From the NCBI GenBank assembly GCA_001587715.1, contig LNGC01000003.1:1-38169 (forward strand): a DNA stretch of 38,169 bases, written 5' to 3'. Under the pieces are notes generated by a model. It saw nothing but the letters and a program-made list of their open reading frames with translations. It made no database searches and had not been told where the DNA came from. Numbering within the stretch: the stretch's first letter is position 1; every line of letters starts with the position of its first letter. Of this stretch, positions 4,628 through 18,536 are shown one piece after another. This stretch comes from Candidatus Methanofastidiosum methylothiophilum. Lineage in GTDB: Archaea > Methanobacteriota_B > Thermococci > Methanofastidiosales > Methanofastidiosaceae. The translations under genes and the position numbers were made by a program.

Positions 4628-5620
4628 CTACTTGTAAGATCCTAGTGTCTTCATGTAGTTCGCCCTTTCATATGCTGAAGGCTCTAAAACATTTCTTTGT
4701 GATATAAGACCCTGAATTGACTTTATTGAGTCGTATTCGTGGCTAGATAGCCAGTCTTTAACTTCAGATAAGACTTTTTCAATATGGTCAATGCCATTTT
4801 TTATCAAAGCAGAGGTCATCATTGAAACGTTTGCTCCGGCCATAATTGTTTTGATGACATCCGAGCCGGTGTGAACACCACCTGTGATTGCAATATCGGG
4901 CTTTATCTTTCCGTACATTATTGCGGCCCATCTTAATCTTAGTCTTAGCTCATCACTATTACTCAAAACAAGATTTGGAGTTATTTCGAGATTCTCAACA
5001 TCAATATCAGGCTGGTAAAACCTATTGAATATTACAAAAGCATCAGCACCAGCTTTTTCTAGATTTCTTAGTAAGTTAGGAGTTGAAGTAAAATAAGGGC
5101 TGAGTTTAACTGCCAACGGAATTTTAATTTTTTGTTTGACACTTTTGACAAGATTATAATAATTTTCTTCAATCTTTTCTGATTTTATTGAAACGTCAGT
5201 AGGTATGTAGTAAATGTTTAACTCTAATGCATCAGCACCGGCCTGTTCTATCTTTTGTGCATACTTTATCCATCCGCCTTCTGAAACTCCGTTTAAGCTT
5301 CCGATAATTGGTATGTCTAAACTTGCCTTTACTTCCTTTACAAGTTCAATATATTCATCGGGGGCAAACTTGAATTCTTTTATCTCAGGAAAATAAGTCA
5401 GGGCTTCTGCGTAGCTTTCTGTCCCCTGAAGTAAAAATTTATTCAACTCCTCTTGTTCAATTTCGAGCTGCTCCTCAAAAAGCGAGTGCAAAACAACTGC
5501 CGCAGCACCCGATCTCTCAGCTTTTTTGATATTCTTTGGATCTTCCCATAAGTATGAAGATGAAGCCACTATGGGATTCTTTAAATTAAGTCCCATGTAG
5601 CTTGTTGAAAGATCAATCAT
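4628..5620 (-). CDS. Dihydroorotate dehydrogenase-like FMN protein coupled to PFOR
   Basis: A 330-residue TIM-barrel flavoprotein of the dihydroorotate dehydrogenase superfamily (N-terminus MIDLSTSYMGLNLKNPIV; late phosphate-binding glycines in ITGGVHTG and MAGANVSMMT). The start at 5620 follows AGGAGG closely and overlaps the PFOR stop as ATGA, a strong sign of translational coupling. The longer in-frame reading from 5674 would lie inside PFOR and has no reason to be used. True pyrimidine DHODs have a defined catalytic base region that I cannot confirm here. Related genes next to single-chain PFOR are common in anaerobic bacteria, where they are annotated only as DHOD-like. A role tied to pyruvate/ferredoxin redox chemistry is inferred from that coupling. 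Pyrimidine synthesis is the alternative but no other pyr gene is nearby. Confidence 0.85.
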   Translation of the reverse strand: MIDLSTSYMGLNLKNPIVASSSYLWEDPKNIKKAERSGAAAVVLHSLFEEQLEIEQEELNKFLLQGTESYAEALTYFPEIKEFKFAPDEYIELVKEVKASLDIPIIGSLNGVSEGGWIKYAQKIEQAGADALELNIYYIPTDVSIKSEKIEENYYNLVKSVKQKIKIPLAVKLSPYFTSTPNLLRNLEKAGADAFVIFNRFYQPDIDVENLEITPNLVLSNSDELRLRLRWAAIMYGKIKPDIAITGGVHTGSDVIKTIMAGANVSMMTSALIKNGIDHIEKVLSEVKDWLSSHEYDSIKSIQGLISQRNVLEPSAYERANYMKTLGSYK

Positions 5621-8600
5621 TTTTCCTCCTCTTTTGGCTGTGGCATTTCTGACCAATATTTGTAGAAGTTCCATCTTTGTAGGACTTGTTTCTGTGACTC
5701 GTCTAAGAGTTTCTTTGCTACTTCAGGTTTGCTTCTGAGCAATATCTTGAATCTAGTTTCGTTGTAGATATATTTATCAAGAGTTATTGAAGGCTTGCCT
5801 GAGTCCAACTGAAGTGGATTTTTTCCCTCCTTCTCTAAATTTGGATTGTATCTCATCAGTGGCCAGTAACCAGACTGGACTGCAGCCTTCTGTTGATCAG
5901 GACCATGGATAAGATCATATCCTTGATTGATACAGTGTGCATAAGCTATAATAATTGATGTACCCTCGTATGCTTCTGCTTCTAGGAAGGCTTTTACTGT
6001 TTGAGCATTATTTGCACCGAAAGCAACTCTTGCTACGTATACATTTCCGTAGATCATCGCCATCATGGCAAGATCTTTCTTTGGTGTTGGTTTTCCTCCC
6101 ATTGCAAACTTTGCCACTGCACCAAGTGGTGTTGCCTTTGACATTTGGCCTCCTGTATTTGAGTAGACTTCTGTATCGAGAACAAGGATGTTGACATTTT
6201 TTCCTAGTGCAAGAACATGATCAAGACCCCCATACCCTATGTCATAGGCCCAACCGTCTCCTCCCAAAATCCAGACACTTTTTTTAACTAAAGAATCAGC
6301 TAAACTCAATAAATCCTTTGCTTCAGGCTTTTGCATCGACTTAAGTTTGGCCTTCAACAGCTTTACCATCTCTCGCTGCTTGTTTATTCCTGTCTCGGTA
6401 TCTTGATTTGTGTTTTTTAGTTCATATACAAGGTCCTTTCCCAAATCATCTGTAAGTTTTTCAACTAACTCCATTGCATATTCTTTTTGTTTATCAAGAG
6501 CCAATCTCATACCAAGACCAAACTCTGCAGTATCTTCGAAAAGAGAGTTGGACCATGTTGGGCCACGGCCATCCTTATTTGTGGTGTATGGTGTCGTTGG
6601 GAGATTTCCCCCATAAATCGATGAACATCCTGTTGCATTGGCTATTACAGCCCTATCTCCAAATAATTGTGTCATTAGCTTTACGTAAGGAGTTTGACCA
6701 CAACCTGAACAAGCCCCCGAAAATTCAAACAGAGGTTCTAAAAGCTGAATATCCTTTACAGTTGTAACATTTAATTTTTCACGGTCAACATAAGGGATAG
6801 ATTCAAAGAAATTCCAGTTTTCTTTTTCTCTATCGAGTATGGGGTCCTTAAATTCCATATTCACAGCTTTTAATTTGGGGTCCTGTTTGTTTTTTGCAGG
6901 ACATGTTTCATAACAAAGTTTGCATCCGGTACAGTCTTCTGGCGAAGCCTGAACAGTATAAATGAAATCCTTAAACTGTGAAAATTTTGCTTCAACGTGT
7001 TTGAATGAAGCCGGTGCACCCTTTAAAGAATTTTTTGAGTAGACTTTAGCCCTGATAACTGCATGTGGGCAGACAAATGTGCATTTACCACATTGTATAC
7101 AAGTTTCAGGATCCCACACTGGCACGTCAAGCGATATATTTCTCTTTTCCCACTTTGTTGTTCCAGTTGGATATGTACCATCATGGGGAAACGCACTCAC
7201 TGGGAGCTCGTCTCCCTTTCCGATAACCATTTTAGATATGGCATTTTTGACGTATGCTGGGGCTTCTTCCGGCATTGATGATTTCAAATAAAAGTTGCTT
7301 GTTACCTTTCCAGGTACCTTCACTTCGTAGAGATTGTCAATGGCCTTATCAATTGCCTCATAATTCATCTTTAATATTTTTTCTCCCTTGAGGCCGTATG
7401 TTTTTTCAGTAAACTTTTTTATTGACTTAATTGCATCTTCTTTTGGAATGACATTACTTAAGGCAAAAAAACATGTCTGCATAATTGTATTGATTCTAAC
7501 TCCAAGGCCTATATCCTTCGCTATATCATAAGCATCAATTGTATAAAATTTAATCTTCTTATCTATTATTTCCTGCTGGACGTTTCTTGGAAGCTGGTCC
7601 CATACTTCTTCCTTAGGGTAAGGACTATTCAAAAGGAATATCGAATTCTTTTCAGCAACATTTAGCATATCATATTTATCTAAAAATGAACATTGGTGGC
7701 ACGCCACAAAGTTCGCCTTATCTATTAGGTAAGGAGATCTTATTGGGTCTGGGCCAAATCGCAAATGTGAAATTGTAAGTGATCCGGCCTTTTTTGAATC
7801 ATAATAAAAGAAACCTTGTGCATAGTTGTCTGTTTCTTCACCAATTATTTTTATTGAGCTCTTGTTTGCACTTACTGTACCGTCAGCACCTAGGCCAAAG
7901 AACACTGCCCTTGTTCTGTTTTCAGGCTCAACGAAAAAGTTTGGGTCATAATCGAGACTTTGATGGGTTACATCATCATTAATTCCTACAGTAAATCTGT
8001 TCTTTGGATTTGGCTTCTTTAATTCATCAAACACAGCCTTTGCCATTGAAGGTTTAAACTCTTTTGAGGATAACCCGTAAATTCCTCCAATTATTTTTGG
8101 CATCTTTTCCATTTTTAACATACCATTTGAGAATGCTGAAGAAAGGGCAGTTGTAATGTCAAGGTAAAGAGGTTCTCCCAAAGCGCCAGGCTCTTTTGTT
8201 CTATCAAGAACTGCAATGCTTTTTACAGATAGAGGTAGTGATGAAATGAAGTGTTTCAAAGAAAAAGGTCTGAAAAGTCTTACTTTTAGGACTCCTACCT
8301 TTTCACCCTTCTTATTTAGGTAGTTCACAGTTTCTTCTACAGTTTCAGCACCGCTTCCCATGATAATAATAATTCTTTCAGCATCTGGAACCCCCTCGTA
8401 CTGGAAAAGTTTGTACTGTCTGCCAACAATCTTTGCAAATTTGTCCATAGCTTCCTGGACCAAATCTGGGCAGGAATTATAATAAGGATTTATTGTTTCT
8501 CTTGCCTGGAAAAATGTATCTGGATTATGGGATGTCCCCCTGATTACTGGATTATCCGGCGAGAGGGCTCTTGCCCTATGGGCCCTTACCAAATCCTCAT

Positions 8601-9186
8601 CTATCATTTCATTTAAATCAGAAAGCGTTAAACGTTCAACTTTAGAAGTTTCAGCTGATGTTCTAAATCCATCAAAGAAATGTAAAAATGGAACTCTTGA
8701 TTTTAATGTTGCGGCTTGGGCTATAAGTGCAGTGTCCATTACTTCCTGAACAGAGTTTGACGCTAGAAGGGCAAATCCAGTAGAACGTACCGCCATTACA
8801 TCCCCATGGTCACAAAAGATTGACAGAGCATGTGTTGCTAGAGTCCTAGCACTTACATGAAAAACAGTAGAGGTAAGCTCCCCAGCAATTTTATACATGT
8901 TGGGGATCATTAAAAGAAGTCCTTGAGCTGCGGTAAAGGTAGTAGTAAGTGCACCTTTCTGCAAAGAACCGTGAACAGTACCAGATGCCCCACCTTCACT
9001 TTGCATCTCAGTTACACTAGGAACTGTACCCCATATATTGGGCTCCCCTTCGGATGCCCACTGGTCAGATAACTCCCCCATTGTTGAAGAAGGAGTTATA
9101 GGATATATTGACATTACTTCATTAACATGATAAGCTACATATGCAGCAGCTTCATTTCCATCAATAGTAACCATCTGCCTTTTCAT
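5617..9186 (-). CDS. nifJ: Single-chain pyruvate:ferredoxin (flavodoxin) oxidoreductase
   Basis: A 1189-residue enzyme that converts pyruvate, CoA and oxidised ferredoxin to acetyl-CoA, CO2 and reduced ferredoxin. All domains of the homodimeric type are fused in one chain. The N-terminal pyrimidine-binding domain has YPITPSSTMGE near the start. A transketolase-C-like domain, the gamma domain and the EKR linker follow. Two 4Fe-4S motifs lie at about residues 695-706 (CIQCGKCTFVCP) and 750-760 (CTGCKLCYETCP). The TPP domain has GACSGCGQTPY near 823 and GDGWAYDIGYGG near 975. Length fits NifJ (about 1170-1200). Most archaea use a four-subunit PFOR instead, so the gene may have come from bacteria. 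The ATG at 9186 follows GGTGA by seven bases. A TATA-like element lies at 9234-9245. Confidence 0.97.
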   Translation of the reverse strand: MKRQMVTIDGNEAAAYVAYHVNEVMSIYPITPSSTMGELSDQWASEGEPNIWGTVPSVTEMQSEGGASGTVHGSLQKGALTTTFTAAQGLLLMIPNMYKIAGELTSTVFHVSARTLATHALSIFCDHGDVMAVRSTGFALLASNSVQEVMDTALIAQAATLKSRVPFLHFFDGFRTSAETSKVERLTLSDLNEMIDEDLVRAHRARALSPDNPVIRGTSHNPDTFFQARETINPYYNSCPDLVQEAMDKFAKIVGRQYKLFQYEGVPDAERIIIIMGSGAETVEETVNYLNKKGEKVGVLKVRLFRPFSLKHFISSLPLSVKSIAVLDRTKEPGALGEPLYLDITTALSSAFSNGMLKMEKMPKIIGGIYGLSSKEFKPSMAKAVFDELKKPNPKNRFTVGINDDVTHQSLDYDPNFFVEPENRTRAVFFGLGADGTVSANKSSIKIIGEETDNYAQGFFYYDSKKAGSLTISHLRFGPDPIRSPYLIDKANFVACHQCSFLDKYDMLNVAEKNSIFLLNSPYPKEEVWDQLPRNVQQEIIDKKIKFYTIDAYDIAKDIGLGVRINTIMQTCFFALSNVIPKEDAIKSIKKFTEKTYGLKGEKILKMNYEAIDKAIDNLYEVKVPGKVTSNFYLKSSMPEEAPAYVKNAISKMVIGKGDELPVSAFPHDGTYPTGTTKWEKRNISLDVPVWDPETCIQCGKCTFVCPHAVIRAKVYSKNSLKGAPASFKHVEAKFSQFKDFIYTVQASPEDCTGCKLCYETCPAKNKQDPKLKAVNMEFKDPILDREKENWNFFESIPYVDREKLNVTTVKDIQLLEPLFEFSGACSGCGQTPYVKLMTQLFGDRAVIANATGCSSIYGGNLPTTPYTTNKDGRGPTWSNSLFEDTAEFGLGMRLALDKQKEYAMELVEKLTDDLGKDLVYELKNTNQDTETGINKQREMVKLLKAKLKSMQKPEAKDLLSLADSLVKKSVWILGGDGWAYDIGYGGLDHVLALGKNVNILVLDTEVYSNTGGQMSKATPLGAVAKFAMGGKPTPKKDLAMMAMIYGNVYVARVAFGANNAQTVKAFLEAEAYEGTSIIIAYAHCINQGYDLIHGPDQQKAAVQSGYWPLMRYNPNLEKEGKNPLQLDSGKPSITLDKYIYNETRFKILLRSKPEVAKKLLDESQKQVLQRWNFYKYWSEMPQPKEEEK

Positions 9187-15623: not shown

Positions 15624-16343
15624 TTACTTAAAAAATTCTTTAACAATTATCCTTCTTTCATCAATATCTTTTCCTTCAAACAGTTTATAACAACCGCAAG
15701 AAGCTTTACCCTCTGTACATATACCTTCACTGATGCATTTTGGTCCTGATGATTCAAATAATGCAGGTGAGACTTCAAGGACTTGATATAGCATTTCCCA
15801 TGCCATATCCCTGATTTCCCACTGTGCTCTGTTGCAACATCGAAGATTAAAGAAATGCAGTAACTCTCTTGCATTCATTGTCATTACAAGATTAGTTTTA
15901 ATGGCGTTAGGGAGTACAAATCTCGCGTCTTCAGGAGCTATACCAAGTCCAAGCAGTTTCTTATAACTCTCAGTATTATTATTAAGACTCTTATTAAATA
16001 TCTCTTCTGCAGCTTTATTATTCTTAATCGAAGGTGGGGTAACAAATGGAACGTCTTCCATCTTTACATATCTCTGGCTCTGCTGTGTGAAAGAAGCTAT
16101 TCTGTGCCTTACTAATTGATGGGAGCATGCCCTAGAAATGCCTTCTATAGAAAAAGTAAAACTTGCATGCTCTATAACTGAATAATGGCCATATCCAACA
16201 ACTCTCTGAATCCTCTTTTTTGCATTGTCCGCATCTATTTCATTTAACATGTCTGAAGGAGTTCCTTCCTTCATTGATGTAAGGGCTGCAACAGCACATA
16301 CTTTTTCAGGATTTTGGGTATGCTCTAAAAGAACAACTTTCAT
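15624..16343 (-). CDS. thyX: Flavin-dependent thymidylate synthase ThyX
   Basis: A 239-residue FAD enzyme making dTMP from dUMP with methylenetetrahydrofolate (or an archaeal pterin) and NAD(P)H. The family signature RHRx7S is exact at residues 79-89 (RHRIASFTQQS). It is preceded by the conserved YGHYSVIEHA. The C-terminal part has NARELLHFFNLR and then a cluster of four cysteines at about 202-218. I do not know a catalytic role for the cysteine cluster; metal binding is a guess. It is first in the minus-strand run with dCMP deaminase, kinase and clamp-loader genes. A TATA-like element lies upstream at about 16360-16390. Confidence 0.96.
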   Translation of the reverse strand: MKVVLLEHTQNPEKVCAVAALTSMKEGTPSDMLNEIDADNAKKRIQRVVGYGHYSVIEHASFTFSIEGISRACSHQLVRHRIASFTQQSQRYVKMEDVPFVTPPSIKNNKAAEEIFNKSLNNNTESYKKLLGLGIAPEDARFVLPNAIKTNLVMTMNARELLHFFNLRCCNRAQWEIRDMAWEMLYQVLEVSPALFESSGPKCISEGICTEGKASCGCYKLFEGKDIDERRIIVKEFFK

Positions 16344-16359
16344 TATACTGAATTGAGTC

Positions 16360-16390
16360 AGATATTATATAAGATTAAGCATTTATAATT
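16360..16390 (-). promoter_or_regulatory. Putative thyX promoter region
   Basis: Two TATA-like stretches are visible on the minus strand. ATTATAAATGC near 16380-16390 predicts a TSS near 16360. CTTATATAATATC near 16360-16372 predicts a nearly leaderless transcript. I cannot choose between them. Confidence 0.35.
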
Positions 16391-16428: not shown

Positions 16429-16480
16429 AAATATTGATTATCAATACTTTCTTATTATTTAAATAATAACATCAATATTT
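16429..16480 (+). promoter_or_regulatory. Nested inverted repeats upstream of the 87-residue gene, candidate operator
   Basis: Perfect 10-base arms AAATATTGAT (16429-16438) and ATCAATATTT (16471-16480) enclose a perfect 18-bp palindrome at 16452-16469. The left arm is itself part of ATTGATTATCAAT, an inverted repeat with one central base (16433-16445). The core ATATTGATTATCA recurs at 16577-16589. This sits in a 271-base gap between divergent thyX and the 87-residue gene. AT-rich DNA makes palindromes easier to find by chance, but the shared ATATTGAT core at three places is unlikely to be noise. Confidence 0.5.
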
Positions 16481-16550
16481 CTAAAGTCATTAAGCCCTTT
16501 TTGTTTATATTTTGTAATGATTTTGGAACATTGTTATATATTATCGATAT

Positions 16551-16565
16551 CGAAAAGCTTATAAA
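16551..16565 (+). promoter_or_regulatory. Strong BRE/TATA promoter of the 87-residue gene
   Basis: CGAAAAGCTTATAAA is a near-ideal archaeal BRE plus TATA box, partly overlapped by a perfect 10-bp palindrome TCGATATCGA at 16544-16553. The TSS is expected near 16588, on top of the second ATATTGATTATCA copy. The leader then carries GGTGA at 16604-16608. Confidence 0.65.
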
Positions 16566-16576
16566 CTGGTAACTGT

Positions 16577-16589
16577 ATATTGATTATCA
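16577..16589 (+). repeat. Second copy of ATATTGATTATCA, at the predicted transcription start
   Basis: An exact 13-base copy of the sequence at 16431-16443, 146 bases downstream. Its place over the expected TSS suits repression of the 87-residue gene by a protein that also binds the upstream repeats. This is inference. Confidence 0.5.
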
Positions 16590-16614
16590 GCTACTAAAGG
16601 ATAGGTGAAGTGTT

Positions 16615-16878
16615 ATGAAAATTGTTGAAAGAGGAATTGAAAGGCACACAGATAAGCCCTACACAGTTAGGATACTTGTCGAAAACCTAAACCTTGGCAC
16701 AATAAGCCCAGGGACAATCCCAGGATCCGTAAATGTAAAAACTTACGACACAGATCTTGGAACATACTTAGAGCTTACTGGGGACACAAGGGATGTTATA
16801 GAGTGTGAGACAAGGATAGTAGAGATGAACGAAACTGTAAAGGTAAAAGACGTAAGAAAAGTATTTTCCGAGATTTAA
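16615..16878 (+). CDS. Unknown 87-residue archaeal protein with strong promoter
   Basis: I do not recognise this protein. It is soluble, acidic to neutral, and lacks cysteine pairs, apart from one cysteine at about residue 64. Predicted strands dominate: KPYTVRILVENL, SVNVKTYDTDLGTYLEL and CETRIVEMNETVKVKD. A small beta-rich or alpha/beta fold is likely, with a Gly/Pro-rich turn LGTISPGTIPGS. It has a near-ideal promoter, a GGTGA site and a T-rich terminator right after its stop, so it is probably a single-gene, well-expressed unit. The upstream repeats suggest tight control, perhaps by its own product. It could be a regulator or a small metabolite-binding protein; neither can be shown. Confidence 0.75.
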   Translation: MKIVERGIERHTDKPYTVRILVENLNLGTISPGTIPGSVNVKTYDTDLGTYLELTGDTRDVIECETRIVEMNETVKVKDVRKVFSEI

Positions 16879-16890: not shown

Positions 16891-16913
16891 AATAAATAAT
16901 CTTGAGGAGAACA

Positions 16914-18536
16914 ATGCTAGGAAGATGCTCAAGGATTGTCATCGTATCAATATTCATATTGGTAATGATGGTACCATCTACTTGGGGCGCTACTAACAAA
17001 AATTTTCTCCTTAATGTTGTTAGTGTAAATGGAACTCCAATCCAAGATGCAGAAATCAGAATGTCATTGCAATCTGATTCAAATTATCAAAGATCTGGAA
17101 ATTCAAATTCAAGAGGGGAACTCCTTTTTGAAAATATAGCCGAAGGAACCTATTCGATTACTATTGTAAAAAGTGGATTTGTCACAATACTCGAGAATGT
17201 AGATATTACTTCAATCTCTTCAAAGACATTTTATCTCCGACATTCCGGATTTAAAATAATTTCTGGTCGAGTTTACAAAGATTCAAATGATAATAAGGTC
17301 TTTGACACCGGGGAACTTGGGATAGCTAATGCGACTGTCAAAGCCACAAATGTAACTACAAACGAAACATTTTCCGTTAATACAGATGACAATGGACAAT
17401 TTAGGATTGAAATACCCGATGCACAAAACTATAAAGTTATAGTTTCTTATTCCGCTTCAGAGTATGAAGTACCAAATACTGTAACGCCAATAGAGACTGT
17501 GGATTATTCGATAACAGTTCCTTTAATAATAAAAGGAGAAGTTTACGGCAAGGTAACAACAGATGAAGGCAACCCATTGTTCGGTATACAAGTTTTTCTC
17601 AAAGGAACAAGTGTAACTTATACTTCTACTGATCTCGGGGGATTCTTTAGATTCTCAGTAAAACCTGGAACTTATTTTGTAGAAGTTGAGTTCATGGATT
17701 ATGAGAAATATGCAACTGAACCTTTTAATCTTGCACAAGAAGAACAAAAAGAAGTAACAGTTGTTTTATCCAAACAAAAAGGAACTCTCACTTACGAAAT
17801 AAAAACAGAAGATGGCAAGGCTTTATCTGAAGTCGATGCTGAGCTAATAAAGACTGGAAGCGGTGTCTCAGTTGAGAAGATTAGCAAGGCGAATGGAACA
17901 ATACAGCTTCCACCAGGAGTCTATACTTTAAAGGCCGATGCAAAAGGATATGAGCCATCAGAAATAAATTTTGAGATTACTAAAGCGGGGATTACAAAGT
18001 CACTGACATTAAAACAATCAAATGGTTCAATAAAAGTTACGCTAAAGGATTTGAAAGGTAATCCTATCAGTGGAGTTTCTGTTCTTGTAGACGGACAGCA
18101 AAAAGGCAGTTCAGATAATTCTGGTACATTAGTAATATCTGATCTTCCACCAAAAGAATATCAAGTTACAGCATCTTCAACACTTTACGGAAAAGTAACA
18201 CAGATTGTAAAAGTTGAAGGGGAAACAGAAAAAGAAATCAATTTAATTTTAGCATCAAATATCCTAATCCAAGGATTACCTATTATCATAATTGCAGCAT
18301 TTTTCATTATCATAGCTTTCTTAAAAATGAATGTGAAGCATATCGGTCTTCCAAAAAAGACATTTGAAAAGCCGCAGATGCAAGAAGTACCGCCCCAATT
18401 ATATTCACAGGAAATTGAAAAAAGACAAGATTCAGTGGAATCAAAACAGGTACCAATCAAAAAATCAAAGCTTAAGACAAAAAGACCCCTCAGAGGACTT
18501 CCAAAAAAGCCTTCAAAAAATAAAGAAAATCCATAA
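16914..18536 (+). CDS. Membrane-anchored cell-surface protein with carboxypeptidase-regulatory/SdrD-like beta-sandwich repeats
   Basis: A 540-residue exported protein. ATG 16914 is chosen because GAGGAG lies four to nine bases upstream; TTG 16902 would precede that site. A signal peptide covers about residues 1-25. Five immunoglobulin-like units follow, at roughly 30-110, 115-200, 210-290, 293-365 and 370-445. They carry the carboxypeptidase regulatory-like pattern (DLGGFFRFSVKPGTYFVEVE), and unit 2 resembles SdrD B (GRVYKDSNDNKVFDTGELG). A single transmembrane helix lies near 453-473, then a lysine/proline-rich cytoplasmic tail of about 65 residues. This is a surface scaffold or adhesion type; no enzyme motif is seen. 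The tail is unusually long and basic for such proteins. Confidence 0.85.
   Translation: MLGRCSRIVIVSIFILVMMVPSTWGATNKNFLLNVVSVNGTPIQDAEIRMSLQSDSNYQRSGNSNSRGELLFENIAEGTYSITIVKSGFVTILENVDITSISSKTFYLRHSGFKIISGRVYKDSNDNKVFDTGELGIANATVKATNVTTNETFSVNTDDNGQFRIEIPDAQNYKVIVSYSASEYEVPNTVTPIETVDYSITVPLIIKGEVYGKVTTDEGNPLFGIQVFLKGTSVTYTSTDLGGFFRFSVKPGTYFVEVEFMDYEKYATEPFNLAQEEQKEVTVVLSKQKGTLTYEIKTEDGKALSEVDAELIKTGSGVSVEKISKANGTIQLPPGVYTLKADAKGYEPSEINFEITKAGITKSLTLKQSNGSIKVTLKDLKGNPISGVSVLVDGQQKGSSDNSGTLVISDLPPKEYQVTASSTLYGKVTQIVKVEGETEKEINLILASNILIQGLPIIIIAAFFIIIAFLKMNVKHIGLPKKTFEKPQMQEVPPQLYSQEIEKRQDSVESKQVPIKKSKLKTKRPLRGLPKKPSKNKENP

Follow-up and report, generated by a model that had tools for sequence, protein, structure and literature searches.

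In the genome of Candidatus Methanofastidiosum methylothiophilum, the gene thyX, encoding a FAD-dependent thymidylate synthase, and a gene encoding a protein of 87 residues are transcribed divergently from an intergenic region of 271 bp located in contig 3. The window, that is, the whole stretch of DNA that was analyzed, comprises 38,169 nucleotides, and the features of the intergenic region and its surroundings are collected in Table 1. With its likely BRE/TATA about 25 nt before the ATG, the thyX mRNA is probably leaderless. On the other side, a T-rich run directly follows the ORF at 16615-16878; the original prediction took this run as the terminator of the 87-aa gene, a role that is doubtful as a separate terminator given that the gene encoding an exported repeat protein starts 23-35 bp past the stop codon. 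Because of this short distance, the 87-aa gene and the downstream gene may form one operon despite the T-run.

Two other characteristics of the window were observed. An ORF of 1189 aa (5617-9186) presumably encodes a protein resembling the bacterial-type single-chain pyruvate:ferredoxin oxidoreductase, a likeness that we take to be unusual for an archaeon. In addition, the thyX/87-aa intergenic region, near 16 kb, is where both the GC skew and the direction of the genes switch sign. A replication origin at this position, as suggested by the GC skew, was considered and discarded, since both cdc6 genes of the genome are on other contigs; the presence of the motif described below at many promoters is a further argument against it. 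The genome is too fragmented to judge whether the skew switch corresponds to an origin.

Table 1. Features of the thyX/87-aa gene region (positions within the window).
Feature	Position	Strand	Remarks
thyX, FAD-dependent thymidylate synthase, divergent gene	15624-16343	-	PF02511 5.5e-75, TIGR02170 6e-60
Likely thyX BRE/TATA, conserved TTAATCTTATATAATA, ~25 nt before the thyX ATG	16363-16381	-	inference
Distal operator (predicted), full 15-bp palindrome TATTGATTATCAATA	16432-16446		exact fit to the genus-wide operator
18-bp AT-only palindrome	16452-16469		P = 0.0125 in shuffles; not conserved in two genomes (G005, G006)
Possible third half-site, 3' arm ATCAATATTT	16471-16480	-	perfect complement of 16429-16438
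Ultraconserved promoter and leader	16524-16614	+	98-100% identity in 10/10 genomes
BRE/TATA of the 87-aa gene, ATCGAAAAGCTTATAAA	16549-16565	+	invariant in 10 genomes; consensus inspection
Proximal half-operator (predicted) TATTGATTATCAGCT, over the predicted start point	16578-16592	+	left half identical to that of the full site
AGGTGA, likely ribosome-binding site of the 87-aa gene	16603-16608	+	within the conserved leader
87-aa ORF, order-restricted orphan family	16615-16878	+	present in 10/10 genus genomes
Exported protein, carboxypeptidase-regulatory-like repeats	16902-18536	+	PF13620 repeats

The repeats that had been described in the intergenic region were all found in place: the 10-base arms AAATATTGAT (16429-16438) and ATCAATATTT (16471-16480), which are 100% complementary, the 18-bp palindrome, the one-base-spaced inverted repeat, and a second exact copy of the 13-mer ATATTGATTATCA (16431-16443 and 16577-16589). 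An odd palindrome, ATTGATTATCAAT, occupies positions 16433-16445. In dinucleotide shuffles of the 271-bp region, the 13-nt direct repeat had a P value of 0.006, and the generalized palindromic site ATTGNTNANCAAT one of 0.005. The operator-like character of the repeated motif was retained, but not the unit originally proposed, ATATTGAT; the actual motif is TATTGNTWANCAATA, and when the copy at 16577 is measured against it, this copy corresponds to the half-site TATTGATTATCAgct, which scores low on a strict position weight matrix. The proximal half-site begins 12 nt past the TATA box, over the expected start point of the 87-aa gene. The distal site is one instance of this wider predicted operator. 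A second palindrome, TCGATATCGA (16544-16553), is located just before and into the BRE and is kept in 8 of the 10 genomes; a different factor could bind there.

The conservation of these elements was evaluated in an alignment of 10 genomes of the genus that carry the 87-aa gene with thyX divergently oriented upstream; seven congeneric loci were obtained with a single 87-aa protein as query. Among the 10 genomes, the 15-bp distal palindrome (16432-16446) has a pairwise difference of 0.024 and the promoter and leader (89 bp upstream of the ATG) one of 0.026, whereas the spacer reaches 0.22 in its first part; the values for the 87-aa ORF are 0.083 at codon positions 1 and 2, and 0.30 at the third. 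The distal core ATTGATTATCAAT is exact in eight genomes and shows a single change (ATCGATTATCAAT) in the other two, and the proximal half-site is invariant in all of them. The scan of related genomes thus confirmed that each of the ten genomes keeps the motif upstream of the orthologue. In contrast, conservation in the genus is only partial for the 18-bp AT palindrome and for the 3' arm of the 10-base repeat, which are therefore probably inessential; in particular, the AT-only palindrome is probably not functional.

The distance between the distal and proximal sites is 146 bp in the 10 genomes, with no insertion or deletion even though part of the spacer drifts. The proposal of two sites around one promoter was in this way borne out; the constant spacing is that looked for in a looping pair, with the qualification that the proximal member is a half-site. 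The conservation of the half-site is not by itself specific evidence for binding, because the entire leader is conserved: the block 16525-16611 is 98-100% identical in the 10 genomes, and no 85-bp window in approximately 13.8 kb of synteny, whether coding or non-coding, is better conserved than one inside this block (0.991, versus 0.928 for the runner-up). A leader that is nearly invariant, together with a proximal copy that is only a half-site, would also agree with a block before the ATG that acts mainly as RNA, either as a structured leader or as a small RNA, the distal palindrome being an unrelated thyX operator and the two elements having no joint action. We consider this explanation unlikely, given that the leader had no Rfam match at E <= 1, its consensus fold is weak and lacks covariation, and the spacing stays at 146 bp while the spacer drifts.

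The literal form of the motif gives little indication of its distribution. In the window, ATATTGATTATCA with up to two mismatches occurs at chance level, and the exact 11-mer ATTGATTATCA shows a modest number of occurrences, around six per genome; both counts would agree with chance repeats in AT-rich DNA. Nevertheless, the generalized pattern gives a very different result: across the 10 genus genomes, TATTGNTNANCAATA gave 100 exact matches in the forward form and 2 in the reversed control, and this excess, the conservation among orthologues and the fixed promoter geometry described below make chance a highly improbable explanation. Neither of the outcomes that the original prediction named as refuting it, a motif missing before the orthologues or counts no higher than chance, was obtained with the generalized motif. 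The other matches to ATTGATTATCA group into orthologous intergenic families, and its one-mismatch neighbors share TATTG-N5-CAATA, in which a T and an A are fixed at central positions. The 13-bp core ATTGNTWANCAAT was found 137 times versus 16 for the control in the genus, and 32 versus 2 in genomes from other families of its order, two genomes of one such family giving 8 versus 0 and 9 versus 0; in 20 genomes of Thermococcaceae it remained at background (5 versus 6). The names Thermococcaceae and Methanofastidiosales used here for these groups reflect our own reading of their relatedness. A literature search combining Methanofastidiosum with promoter, transcription factor or operator returned no relevant paper.

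The predicted operator TATTGNTWANCAATA is present at roughly ten promoters in each genome, and orthologous genes keep their sites across related genomes. Almost every site is non-coding, and those of the two best-sampled genomes are outside the coding sequences or at gene starts. With this many promoters carrying it, the motif is not particular to the 87-aa gene. The idea that the sites control this gene stands insofar as they are conserved upstream of it in the 10 genomes of the genus, but not as an array dedicated to it: the distal copy is placed between thyX and the 87-aa gene, and the operator is found at many other promoters. Some sites are located between convergent genes, as is the case for an ABC-type ATPase gene and a methyltransferase-like gene. 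The palindrome between this convergent pair is conserved (loci L114 in G003:C12, L176 in G000:C6, L041, L059 and L077), in a place where no promoter is expected for either gene.

Profile searches identified among the genes adjoining the sites those encoding SepF, thymidylate kinase, S-layer proteins, FtsZ and CdrS; sepF and the thymidylate kinase gene are accompanied by a gene of dolichol-kinase-like type. Also encoded beside sites are a UDP-sugar dehydrogenase, a Ras-like GTPase, a radical SAM protein, several exported proteins, a UbiA prenyltransferase, an HTH-like protein of 81-83 residues and a permease, and thyX is counted in this set by its position. Elsewhere in the order, in other families, sites are found at S-layer genes, a small HTH-like gene, genes for DUF354 proteins and a cdc6 gene. 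In one such family, the site is about 150 bp from the cdc6/orc1 start (L148 and L141, in G019:C74 and G015:C1). When the upstream regions of both cdc6 genes were inspected in the genus Methanofastidiosum, the site was absent.

Regarding promoter architecture, approximately half of the examined sites abut the BRE (gap of -1 to 4) or start 1 bp past the TATA box, as estimated with a simple BRE/TATA scan of fragments using a hand-made matrix, in which orthologous sites were counted separately and no P value was assigned. In the family that includes G011 and G014, 8 of 13 sites start 1 bp past the TATA box. Smaller classes of sites start 14 and 34 bp past the TATA box. The offset of the proximal half-site in the thyX/87-aa region, 12 nt past the TATA box, is close to the class found at the GTPase promoter; the distal site does not adjoin a BRE, unlike the sites at other promoters. 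A fixed placement relative to the predicted BRE/TATA elements is a strong argument against chance, and an operator competing with the basal factors, or recruiting them, would be expected to show it. At several loci of the G011/G014 family (L161, L163, L165, L167 and L170-L172), the sequence ACCGAAAGCTTTATATAGTATTGATTATCAATA places the palindrome 1 bp past the TATA box, a regularity resembling that of a built-in part of the core promoter.

From these results we conclude that the thyX/87-aa intergenic region is probably a divergent control region carrying predicted sites for a single transcription factor that reads TATTGNTWANCAATA at many promoters of the Methanofastidiosales. A dimeric factor would bind the full distal site and, cooperatively, also the half-site that covers the 87-aa gene start; so bound, the factor would repress the 87-aa promoter by blocking initiation, perhaps through a DNA loop of about 14 helical turns. 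Looping is plausible, as it fits the fixed spacing of 146 bp. The factor bound at the distal site could also influence thyX.

One candidate for this factor would be the 87-aa protein itself, acting on its own promoter and on the regulon. Its gene has two sites and an unusually conserved promoter, and the protein is confined to the order, as is the motif: homologues are present in the 10 genomes of the genus and in 8 of the 11 searched from elsewhere in the order, and none was found among 40 Thermococcaceae searched. However, the homologues in other families, which share 26-34% identity and have different neighbors, are preceded by a strong BRE/TATA but by no recognizable operator, although the motif exists in those genomes. 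In G011, the homologue directly follows a gene (L029, G011:C12) that presumably encodes a protein resembling the chromatin protein Alba. That the 87-aa protein belongs to no familiar family was corroborated by searches of Pfam, NCBIfam and PDB sequences, carried out with the single sequence and with the alignment, which produced no family match. A structure model built from eight close homologues has medium confidence (pLDDT of 69) and shows the order strand-strand-strand-helix-strand; compared with PDB and BFVD using Foldseek, it gave weak ferredoxin/ACT/PII/KH-like matches with E-values of 4e-3 or worse. Both the model and these matches are too weak to name a function. A Pcc1/KEOPS identity was rejected: PF09341 matches two other genes of the genome and not the 87-aa gene, and the hhalign probability was 0.3%. 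The suggestion that the product is a regulator or a binding protein thus found no backing in a family match, and a weak ferredoxin-like model was its sole structural counterpart. With no DNA-binding family or fold recognized, and with homologues that lack an upstream site, it is quite improbable that the 87-aa protein is the regulator; it is an order-restricted orphan for which there is no evidence of a regulatory role.

A narrower form of the preferred explanation, in which one factor reads TATTGNTWANCAATA at many promoters, is that this factor is CdrS, and that the haloarchaeal CdrS cell-division regulon has its Methanofastidiosum counterpart in the whole set, of which the thyX/87-aa locus would be one member. 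In Haloferax volcanii and Halobacterium salinarum, CdrS is a ribbon-helix-helix (RHH) regulator encoded with ftsZ2 (PMC8406309, PMC7439475), and haloarchaeal CdrS has effects on ftsZ1, ftsZ2, sepF and envelope genes and binds a symmetrical motif (PMC8406309). The genus has a cdrS-ftsZ operon: a CdrS homologue (NF058555, 1.4e-12) is encoded directly before FtsZ (TIGR00065, 5e-122), and at G000:C31 the promoter upstream of cdrS, followed by ftsZ, carries TATTGTTTATCATTA directly 5' of the BRE, a site that is identical in the seven genomes whose assembly covers this stretch. The leader of this operon is long and strongly conserved, with two BRE/TATA-like promoters, the operator-like site abutting the upstream BRE (L124:1050-1674).

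The likeness to the haloarchaeal system thus includes a symmetrical motif at scattered promoters and a CdrS homologue directly before ftsZ, as well as, in gene content alone, the coincidence between the ftsZ, sepF and envelope-related genes affected in haloarchaea and those adjoining sites here. In contrast, the Haloferax targets (proteasome, dacZ, hisB and others) overlap little with the site-bearing genes. CdrS is proposed as a candidate because its gene bears a site and sits with ftsZ, and because ftsZ, sepF and envelope genes are connected in the haloarchaeal regulon as well. Against it, a site at the promoter of a regulator is suggestive at most, sites are also present at other regulators, the HTH-like protein of 81-83 residues being one of them, and the match to the haloarchaeal model reaches 47 bits for a cut-off of 100. 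We therefore retain CdrS as the leading candidate in a tentative manner, as a possibility that is open to considerable doubt.

Other known systems provide a more distant comparison. In Sulfolobales, aCcr1 is an RHH repressor of the cell cycle that, as in the case proposed here, controls an archaeal regulon connected with cell division using a short motif; nonetheless, its motif is of the AGTATTA type, unlike the palindrome of Methanofastidiosum, and Sulfolobales belong to a different phylum. FabT, a MarR-family fatty-acid regulator of streptococci, recognizes the operator TTTGATTATCAAA, which we take to include the TTGATTATCAA core present in the distal site. This likeness is probably a chance resemblance, because the archaeal sites, in contrast, tolerate other central bases (TTGTTTAACAA, TTGCTAATCAA).

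With regard to the physiological role of the system, the presence of thyX, tmk, ftsZ, sepF and S-layer genes in the set suggests a growth or cell-cycle programme, and through the regulon, growth or the cell cycle would be coupled to cell division, to the supply of dTTP and to the synthesis of the surface. The cdc6 genes of the genus, which lack the site, are a reason for caution with this reading. In its most complete version, CdrS would run a growth or cell-cycle regulon through TATTGNTWANCAATA abutting BRE/TATA elements, controlling jointly ftsZ with sepF, thyX with tmk, and the S-layer genes, and the 87-aa protein would be a new component of it; this version is rather doubtful.

In archaea, few lineages have provided operators for regulons of division and growth. 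With an operator defined by its sequence at cdrS-ftsZ, sepF, thyX, tmk and S-layer genes, the question of their co-ordination becomes testable in vitro for an uncultured order of methanogens, and the orphan family of the 87-aa protein, with its unusually conserved promoter, joins the list of genes worth expressing.
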